Positions 41,940-43,717 of a DNA stretch of 64,000 bases are shown here, piece by piece. Both the position numbers and the translations under genes were made by a program. This DNA comes from Cloacibacterium normanense (GTDB lineage: Bacteria > Bacteroidota > Bacteroidia > Flavobacteriales > Weeksellaceae). The notes under the pieces were generated by a model that saw only the letters and a list, made by a program, of their open reading frames with translations, made no database searches and was not told where the DNA came from. The stretch lies in assembly GCF_003860565.1 (NCBI RefSeq), contig NZ_CP034157.1, positions 930,001 to 994,000 on the forward strand, in the 5' to 3' direction. Position 1 is the first letter of the stretch; each line of letters starts with the position of its first letter.

Positions 41940-41970
41940 AACCGTCGTATTTTTTACGGCGGTTTTTTTT
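41940..41970 (+). terminator. Terminator of hppA
   Basis: Stem AACCGTCGTA/TACGGCGGTT (one G-T pair) with TTTTT loop then eight T. Confidence 0.75.
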
Positions 41971-42026: not shown

Positions 42027-43112
42027 ATGGAAAATTTTATCGTATCCGCAAGAAAATATCGTCCGCAAGAGTTTGACACTGTTGTAGGGCAATCTCACGT
42101 TACAGATACCTTAGAACACGCCATAGAAAATAGTCAGTTGGCTCAAGCGTTGCTTTTCTGCGGACCTAGAGGTGTAGGAAAGACTACTTGTGCTAGGATT
42201 TTGGCTAGAAAAATCAACGAAAAAGATGGTTCTACCTCAGAAGACGGATTTGCGTATAATATCTTTGAATTAGATGCTGCTTCTAATAACTCAGTAGATG
42301 ATATTAGAGATTTAACAGACCAAGTTCGTTTTGCTCCACAAGTTGGGAAATATAAAATTTATATTATAGACGAGGTTCACATGCTCTCTACAGCGGCATT
42401 TAATGCTTTTCTTAAAACCTTAGAAGAACCACCAGCTCACGCTATTTTTATTTTAGCAACTACCGAAAAACATAAGATTATTCCTACCATTTTATCAAGA
42501 TGTCAGATTTATGATTTCAAAAGAATCACCATCGAAGATATACAGGAACATCTTAGAAAAATTGCCGAAAAAGAAGGCGTAAATTATGAAGATGATGCAT
42601 TGTTCTTAATTGCTCAAAAAGCAGATGGAGCACTGAGAGATGCACTTTCTATCTTTGATAGACTTACCACTTTTACTCAAAAAAATATTACACTTGCTAA
42701 AGCTGCTGAAGTTCTCAATATTCTAGATTACGATCAATATTTGAAAATTGTAGATTTAGCAAAAGAAAATAACATTCCGGGAATTCTTACCGCTTTTAAT
42801 GATATTGTTAAAAAAGGTTTTGACCCACATTTATTTATTGGTGGATTGGGAAGTCATTTCCGTGATTTAATGATGGCTCAGAATGCTTCTACACTTGCTC
42901 TAATAGAAGTAGGTGAGAACACGAAACAGAAGTTTTCTGAACAGAGCAAAAATTGGAGTGCACAGCAACTCATAGATGCTATAGAAATCTGTAATCATGC
43001 AGATATTAATTACAAAAATTCTAAAAATCCAAGATTAACGGTAGAAATCGCTTTGATGCAGTTGGCCAGTCTTACTGCTGCGAAAAGTGATGATAAAAAA
43101 AAAAGTTCTTAA
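42027..43112 (+). CDS. dnaX: DNA polymerase III gamma subunit (dnaX, zero-frame product)
   Basis: 361 residues without slippage. ATPase with Walker A GPRGVGKTT (residues 46-54), Walker B/DExx as IIDEVHML (113-120), sensor-1 LATTEKHKIIPTILSRC (with Arg-finger region), and ends ...ASLTAAKSDDKKKSS at the end of domain III. The stop TAA at 43110 comes five codons after the A run. The product therefore equals domains I-III, the classical gamma size class. Whether gamma is produced in vivo cannot be seen from sequence. Confidence 0.82.
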   Translation: MENFIVSARKYRPQEFDTVVGQSHVTDTLEHAIENSQLAQALLFCGPRGVGKTTCARILARKINEKDGSTSEDGFAYNIFELDAASNNSVDDIRDLTDQVRFAPQVGKYKIYIIDEVHMLSTAAFNAFLKTLEEPPAHAIFILATTEKHKIIPTILSRCQIYDFKRITIEDIQEHLRKIAEKEGVNYEDDALFLIAQKADGALRDALSIFDRLTTFTQKNITLAKAAEVLNILDYDQYLKIVDLAKENNIPGILTAFNDIVKKGFDPHLFIGGLGSHFRDLMMAQNASTLALIEVGENTKQKFSEQSKNWSAQQLIDAIEICNHADINYKNSKNPRLTVEIALMQLASLTAAKSDDKKKSS

Positions 43113-43717
43113 TTCTAGCACCACTTTTTCGTAAAAAGGAAACCGAAAAGCCAAAGGTAGCTCCAGAAAAACCACAAGAAACTTTACCGTCAACTAAAAA
43201 AACAGAAGAATCTGTTCCAAAAACCGTTCAAAAAATTACTGAACCCATTGTTAAGAAAACCATTGTTTCAGAATTTAGTATTCTTGCTACGCTCAATAAA
43301 AAAGAGGAAGAAGAAGTAGTTGTCACTCCTCAGAAAAAAGAAGAAGATTTACCAGACCATCACTTCACCGAAAAAGATTTACAAACAGAATGGCAAATTT
43401 TTCTAAATGATTTATTTATAAAAGACCAAGTCACTTATTTTGCCGTAAATACTGCAAAACTTCATAAAAAGGAAGAAAATGTTGTGGAGATTTTATATCC
43501 TTCAGATTTGGTAAAAACTGAGTTTGAGAAAATTCAAGCACAATTTTTCAATCATTTCAAGAGAAAAGTCAATAACTACAAAATAGAAGTTTCTTACCGA
43601 GAAGACAAAAAACTCATCAAAAAACAAGAAACGAAAAGAGATATTTTCCAGAAATATGTAGAAATTAATCCTGTTTTAAAAGATTTAGATGAATTGATGA
43701 AGTTAGATTTAAGTTAA
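42027..43717 (+). CDS. dnaX: DNA polymerase III tau subunit (dnaX, -1 slippage at A10)
   Basis: Full-length clamp-loader protein, 563 residues if decoding slips one base back at the run of ten A (43095-43104). The slip continues the frame as AKKVLNSS...: after the A run the -1 frame reads KFLILAPLFRKKETEKPKVAPEKPQ and continues to the stop at 43715-43717. It has a Pro/Lys/Glu-rich linker and a C-terminal domain (DELMKLDLS). The C-terminal part also appears as an independent frame starting at 43484. This is the tau architecture: AAA+ domains I-III (from gamma) plus DnaB-binding and alpha-binding domains. The zinc-module cysteines of other DnaX proteins are absent (SEDGFAYNIFELDAASNN takes their place). 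Confidence 0.82.
43095..43104 (+). promoter_or_regulatory. Slippery A10 site in dnaX
   Basis: Ten consecutive A in codons 357-360 (AAA AAA AAA AGT). Repeating one A yields the tau frame. There is a weak AT hairpin (CTTTTT/AAAAAG, 43131-43145) downstream but no strong stimulator, so transcriptional slippage as at Thermus dnaX (A9) is more plausible than ribosomal frameshifting as in E. coli (A AAA AAG). Confidence 0.75.

Follow-up and report, generated by a model that had tools for sequence, protein, structure and literature searches.

Background

The dnaX gene of Escherichia coli gives two products by a -1 ribosomal frameshift at A_AAA_AAG, where a Shine-Dalgarno-like (SD-like) word and a hairpin are present. 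Tau, one of the two, is considered a requirement for coupled replication in this organism. For dnaX of Thermus thermophilus, passages of PMC1088944 and PMC5009743 describe transcriptional slippage at a run of nine A. The former, a survey from 2005, calls the detection of slippage difficult and, in the part cited here, also treats mxiE of Shigella, where slippage is needed for the longer product. A further gene type was put forward by Antonov and coworkers in 2013: as stated in an excerpt of PMC3711429, there are 17 two-frame dnaX genes from 12 genera, nine of them with A10, and transcriptional slippage was proposed for them. Two split genes of Chlorobium have only A8 and A7, and none of the 17 had been annotated with a frameshift (same excerpt). 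A portion of a review from 2016 (PMC5009743) repeats this reversed layout and mentions Chlorobium with signals resembling those of E. coli.

Here, we analyse a dnaX gene of this type from the flavobacterium Cloacibacterium normanense together with its relatives throughout the phylum. The gene type has been known since 2013; what is new is an A9–A12 run that most of the relatives read from the phylum retain, whichever frame encodes tau. In the literature searched we found no report of the run in dnaX genes of the phylum with an uninterrupted tau or of its phylum-wide spread, nor of an interchange of phase, of the closing of a third frame by codon choice, or of a lineage with a ribosomal-type signal as described below for family f37.

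Results and Discussion

A dnaX gene split at ten A residues

The window, that is, the whole stretch of 64,000 nt of DNA that was analysed, comes from an assembly that consists of a single contig of 2.76 Mb. An earlier note, made from the letters of this stretch, had placed a switch of dnaX from gamma to tau at an A10 tract, a reading now supported by the conservation of the tract, by a coding tail and by the match of this tail to DnaX. The features are the following, all on the forward strand.

42027–43112, +: zero-frame ORF of dnaX, gamma-type product of 361 aa with domains I–III (PF13177, PF22608, PF12169; TIGR02397)
43095–43104, +: putative A10 slippage tract (read from the sequence)
43097–43103, +: in-phase heptamer A_AAA_AAA within the tract, at which ribosomes, too, could shift by -1 (sequence)
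43110–43112, +: zero-frame TAA ending gamma, two codons past the tract (sequence)
43132–43134, +: first stop of the third (+1) frame, a TAA nine codons past the tract (sequence)
43103–43717, +: tail in the -1 frame, 204 codons and TAA, which would complete a tau of 563 aa (NF011531 positions 426–613; third-position bias)
43361–43615, +: predicted folded core within the tail, spanning its residues 87–171 (AlphaFold2 model)

The gamma ORF bears the Pfam models for the DnaX ATPase, the lid and domain III and matches TIGR02397 with 395.5 bits at a cut-off of 250. Across the run the zero frame reads AAA AAA AAA AGT TCT TAA, hence it ends five codons from the first A and two codons from the end of the run, where the note had counted five codons after the ten A residues. 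The claimed position of this end at the boundary of domain III agrees with PF12169, which ends at residue 352, the run starting at codon 357. Slipping back by one base gives the continuous frame of 563 codons that had been described, with its TAA at 43715–43717. The tract is the single A10 of the window, which besides it has one A9 and one T9. Between an upstream ORF of 757 aa and dnaX, an inverted repeat followed by a T run (41940–41970) resembles an intrinsic terminator by eye.

With the end of its zero frame at poly-A, its tau part in -1 and its A10, the gene belongs to the two-ORF kind of 2013, from which no essential difference was found: gamma is in the zero frame, tau is reached by -1 and, in nine of the genes given in that part of PMC3711429, the run is A10, too. 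With Thermus thermophilus it shares a pure A run at the gamma/tau boundary and stops near the run in the non-tau frames (here 2 and 9 codons past it). However, tau is templated and gamma slipped in Thermus, whereas gamma is templated and tau slipped in the window gene, so that the comparison drawn in the earlier note stands for the mechanism but not for the layout, and a plain copy of the Thermus arrangement is ruled out on the latter ground. A templated tau like that of Thermus does exist in 110 run-bearing relatives.

The likeness to E. coli dnaX consists of one gene with two products, a -1 shift at an A-rich site and, as in E. coli-type frameshifting, a tRNA-Lys with UUU only. The window gene differs in having A_AAA_AAA in phase and no A_AAA_AAG, in the reversed roles of the frames and in lacking a hairpin; moreover, none of the SD-like words scanned for was seen by eye in the bases before the run, where E. 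coli dnaX has one. In mxiE, as here, the longer protein needs an inserted base, but there the run is of U and the gene is an unrelated regulator.

The tail as part of tau

The earlier note had called the part behind the run obviously coding, and two properties agree with this. The tail matches positions 426–613 of NF011531 (DnaX, 614 positions) with an E-value of 1.7e-10 and 40 bits; the cut-off of 685, which applies to a complete protein, lies far above this. Furthermore, when the tail is read in the -1 frame, its differences from eight relatives cluster at codon position three (for instance 54/43/95 and 53/38/101 over the three positions; p from 1.8e-4 to 3.0e-8). Among the 338 tails of the sample described below, 161 match that of the window at E 1e-3, itself counted (132 with tau in -1, 26 in 0 and three in +1). 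Judged from the NF011531 match, the third-position bias and the matches among the tails, the tail is under purifying selection and is a real, constrained part of tau. No Pfam match to it was found.

An AlphaFold2 model based on 46 tails has a confident core at about residues 87–171 (means of ten-residue blocks 84–95), preceded by a loose linker. A Foldseek search with this model gave no match under E 0.001. Its first matches include a DnaB-DciA complex and DnaA domain I, and 5fku_E, a chain of an E. coli polymerase complex which we take to be tau, came at rank 22 as a weak match (E 0.37, prob 0.66). With VIA-align the best Z was 7.7, for SirA/DnaA domain I and DnaB/DciA entries, a level that is common by chance. 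The predicted fold is no more than compatible with domain V of tau and, since no Foldseek match fell under E 0.001, the identity of the tail rests on its sequence.

The run is conserved whichever frame encodes tau

In total, 348 loci were read, one per genome, among them 80 named loci that are the best of at least 594. After the duplicates (L301, L333) and the unresolved loci (L044, L064, L072, L075, L227, L296, L306, L309) had been dropped, 338 distinct resolved genes were kept. The genomes read make up 117 of the 320 of the family, 110 of the 146 matched in the phylum sample (91 of these with the run) and 44 of the 94 matched genomes newly drawn by the order sample. All 320 family genomes match the dnaX query at E 0.001 or better, although in a few of them (G009, G249, G229) the match is too weak for an intact gene. 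The open frame spans 360–398 codons among the family matches listed, and the closest named loci among the matches listed are those of Halpernia humi and Chryseobacterium lathyri, with 88% identity; the latter species is placed in Weeksellaceae.

A pure run of A9–A12 is found at the junction in 308 of the 338 genes (A10 in 220, A11 in 51, A9 in 33 and A12 in four), in 31 of 42 coded families and at a GC content of the gamma part of up to 0.65. Several distant families have A9. The frame that encodes tau is -1 in 190 of the run-bearing genes, 0 in 110 and +1 in eight; because fetching leaned to genes with short open frames, the numbers for -1 and 0 should not be read as frequencies. The earlier note had named relatives with one uninterrupted frame and another run length as a refutation of its reading, and this is borne out only by half: many relatives are uninterrupted indeed, yet most of them have a run of equal length in the corresponding position.

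Within the family, the run (A10–A12) is present in 117 of 117 genes read, and tau is in -1 in 114 of the 116 distinct ones, in 0 in one (L154) and in +1 in another (L345). In all seven genomes of the genus dnaX is split, with A10 or A11. Among the 30 run-less genes are loci with Bacteroidaceae or Bacteroides in their titles (L036, L052, L071, L074) as well as genes from several distant families such as f10, f11, f16 and f22. In L040, one of those counted as run-less, an A10 stands at codon 453, beyond the scanned region, and the label -1 of three GC-rich run-less loci (L393, L395, L400) is due to chance, this frame being open longer than a long zero frame. In two reduced genomes of about 0.6 Mb from family f46 (L307, L308), dnaX keeps A11, its tau lies in +1 and its tail is short, at about 130 codons; their sibling L326 has one open dnaX frame and A8.

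Elsewhere in the 338 genes, A9 or longer occurs only 15 times in 589,637 bases. Given the protein and the codon usage of each gene, 127.8 genes would be expected to have the run as against 308 seen, which is a contrast and not a test because the 308 (of 338) were picked for having it. In family f15, AAG makes up a share of 0.66 of the lysine codons and the synonymous chance of the run is 0.09; it is present in 28 of 28 resolved genes.

Both non-tau frames are closed early

For a null model by synonymous recoding, the protein of the tail and the codon usage were held fixed and the stops within six codons were counted. In genes with tau in frame 0, frame -1 is closed within this distance in 107 of 110 (63.0 expected) and frame +1 in 89 of 110 (42.0 expected). 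In genes with tau in -1, the same holds for frame 0 in 188 of 190 (105.7 expected), which by definition has to close at some point, and for the third frame, which need not close, in 88 of 190 (46.2 expected). In the tau +1 genes the -1 frame is closed in six of eight, with 2.1 expected. The medians by family are lower than this null in 15 of 19 families (frame -1) and 17 of 19 (frame +1) where tau is in 0, and in 15 of 15 for frame 0 as well as for the third frame where it is in -1. A plain null for the distance to the stop, taken from the rest of the tail, points in the same direction by the mean (5.9 vs 12.0). It gives no excess for the third frame of the -1 genes (median 8 vs 7; 88 of 190 vs a null share of 0.46), and in the tau +1 group the -1 frame is closed no sooner (p 0.52).

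Codon choice brings stops into both non-tau frames earlier than the protein alone would call for. The stops as a by-product of the conserved start of the tail were considered and found insufficient under synonymous recoding. The closing of the third frame favours slippage, or a sliding of ribosomes (see below), since a -1 ribosomal shift gives no reason for it. The purity of a conserved run together with the closing of both other frames can thereby reveal slippage even where its product is shortened.

Interchange of the tau phase

On a FastTree phylogeny of domains I–III, at least 36 changes of the tau frame are needed among the run-bearing genes (mean of 97.9 with shuffled labels) and at least 26 among the 220 genes with exactly A10 (66.3 when shuffled); tree error and homopolymer miscalls can inflate such counts, against which the restriction to A10 guards in part. 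As the changes are fewer than with shuffled labels, the phase partly follows descent. Close relatives, too, can differ in phase: A10 is common to Aquimarina mytili (tau 0) and Aquimarina sp. RZ0 (tau -1), in one genus code G406 (tau +1, A10) stands beside G347 (tau 0, A11), and in another G478 (tau +1, A10) beside G465 (tau -1, A11).

Because slippage would supply all frames, the templated phase may be in near-neutral drift. For the phylum as a whole we see even chances for a scenario in which slippage on A10 fills all frames, so that the encoded one would matter little, and tau drifts back and forth between templated and slipped, while selection keeps the run and the stops in the two other frames. 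The homopolymer would then be the conserved unit, and in a few lineages it would have been lost or have given way to an E. coli-type ribosomal signal. Tau would depend on a copying error in a considerable part of one phylum.

Polymerase or ribosome

For the window gene we consider it probable that RNA polymerase stutters at the A10 tract during transcription of dnaX, faithful copies leading to gamma and slipped copies to tau. Transcripts with the faithful A10 would be translated into gamma of 361 aa. One extra A (also four more or two fewer; A11, A14 or A8) would bring the ribosome into the tail frame and yield tau of 563 aa, and one A fewer or two more (A9, A12) would yield a gamma variant of 368 aa ending at 43132. 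Gamma and tau would then assemble into clamp loaders. We infer that slippage occurs in this organism, and at a rate by which both gamma and tau would be made from this dnaX gene and used.

The main alternative is an E. coli-type -1 ribosomal frameshift on A_AAA_AAA that would make tau without any slippage of the polymerase. The earlier note had found no strong downstream stimulator, and the numbers agree: beside the A10 of the window no hairpin was detected, with z from 0.57 to -0.30 for 40–100 bases. The median z for the 60 bases downstream is -0.41 in the tau -1 genes (190), -0.10 in the tau 0 genes (110) and -0.33 in the run-less ones (28). In addition, the shifted genes read have a run of 9–12 or A6G, never of 7–8; this speaks against a ribosomal shift, whereas the split Chlorobium genes with A7 and A8 (excerpt of PMC3711429) would be in its favour. 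The eight genes with tau in +1 speak for slippage, since a -1 ribosomal shift cannot make a +1 tau, although they are few and vulnerable to homopolymer miscalls.

Other observations fit a ribosomal shift. The direction is -1 in 190 of the 198 shifted run-bearing genes, which counts against slippage. Nevertheless, this excess is not decisive because slippage biased to insertion predicts -1, too. According to parts of PMC6260861, T runs provoke more slippage by RNA polymerase of E. coli than A runs do, and insertion prevails over deletion both at active runs and at A7–A11 in lacZ, overall indel rates being near-equal; the usual shifted phase fits this insertion bias of a bacterial RNA polymerase. 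The heptamer A_AAA_AAA is present, and of 39 tRNA genes found in the genome, for which 150 of 240 first-look candidates were scored, two are for tRNA-Lys, both with UUU and none with CUU. A passage of PMC5009743 ties slippage in Thermus to a second tRNA-Lys that disfavours ribosomal shifting, an argument that is inapplicable here since only the UUU type was found. SD-like words, finally, are more frequent just before the run than in the sequence lying 60 bases farther upstream (29 vs 1 of the 190 tau -1 genes, 18 vs 5 of the 110 tau 0 genes, 47 of 300 vs 6 of 300 overall; none in the eight tau +1 genes), and they count against slippage because a ribosomal shift could use them.

How a ribosomal signal may look in this phylum is illustrated by family f37. 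In the genomes G479, G497 and G564 (the last 70% complete), which fall under two genus codes, the dnaX genes (L298/L445, L305, L446) have A_AAA_AAG with tau in -1, an immediate stop of the zero frame and then a hairpin, the stretch of which has an MFE of -28.0, -20.8 and -21.6 kcal/mol in the three genomes. Over 60 bases z is -4.5 for L298, but only -1.5 for L305. Going by these sequence signals, tau of f37 looks like a product of E. coli-type ribosomal frameshifting with the frame roles reversed. Such a design appears to occur in the phylum, which lends the ribosomal explanation some weight, and it looks different from the A10 genes. Lineages with A_AAA_AAG and a hairpin beside A10 relatives offer a natural experiment on the swapping of transcriptional for ribosomal recoding.

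Weighing these points, we regard a ribosomal frameshift at the A10 of the window as unlikely. The conservation of the run, the variety of tau frames, the closed frames, the missing hairpin and the contrast to f37 together favour slippage of RNA polymerase, with the templated phase free to drift. The preference of the earlier note for a transcriptional over an E. coli-type mechanism is upheld by the same hairpin-free site, the runs of 9–12 in the shifted genes (except A6G), the closing of both frames and the occasional tau in +1.

Much less probable still is a sliding of ribosomes on the poly-A message, which is not a programmed -1 shift and from which they would leave in all frames. In E. coli extracts, according to a section of PMC4363877, such sliding is robust on A11, and A9 and A10 with three lysines give little product. 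It would also explain why both non-tau frames are closed. However, A10 is the commonest length here (220 of 308) and A9 that of several distant families, just the lengths with little product in that work.

It is hardly credible that the frame break arose by a slip in sequencing or by a recent mutation, with the gene intact or giving gamma only. A10 runs are error-prone to sequence, but the break recurs in every one of the genus's seven genomes and in 114 of the 116 distinct genes read from the family; together with the purifying selection seen on the tail, this rules out a slip of this kind as well as a pseudogene.

Other long A runs in the genome

In the list for the genome there are 28 distinct runs of A10 or longer, of which 23 were examined. 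Six of these touch an open stretch of at least 120 codons, two of them right where it begins and one on the opposite strand. The three others lie in sense with more than 100 codons ahead, in dnaX, in a csgE-like gene and in a type I methylase gene.

The csgE-like gene (G000:C1:1432813; L178, L447) is split at A10: past the run, the -1 frame matches PF10627 (CsgE, curli assembly), and the upstream frame of 141 codons closes immediately behind it. The same break is present in the sister species (L448, G001). A match in G003 lacks this A10, and none was found in the four other genomes of the genus. Slippage, phase variation and decay are all possible for this gene. At G000:C1:2388234 (L191), A11 lies inside a long open frame with a type I methylase and a specificity domain, which could be a phase-variable restriction-modification gene.
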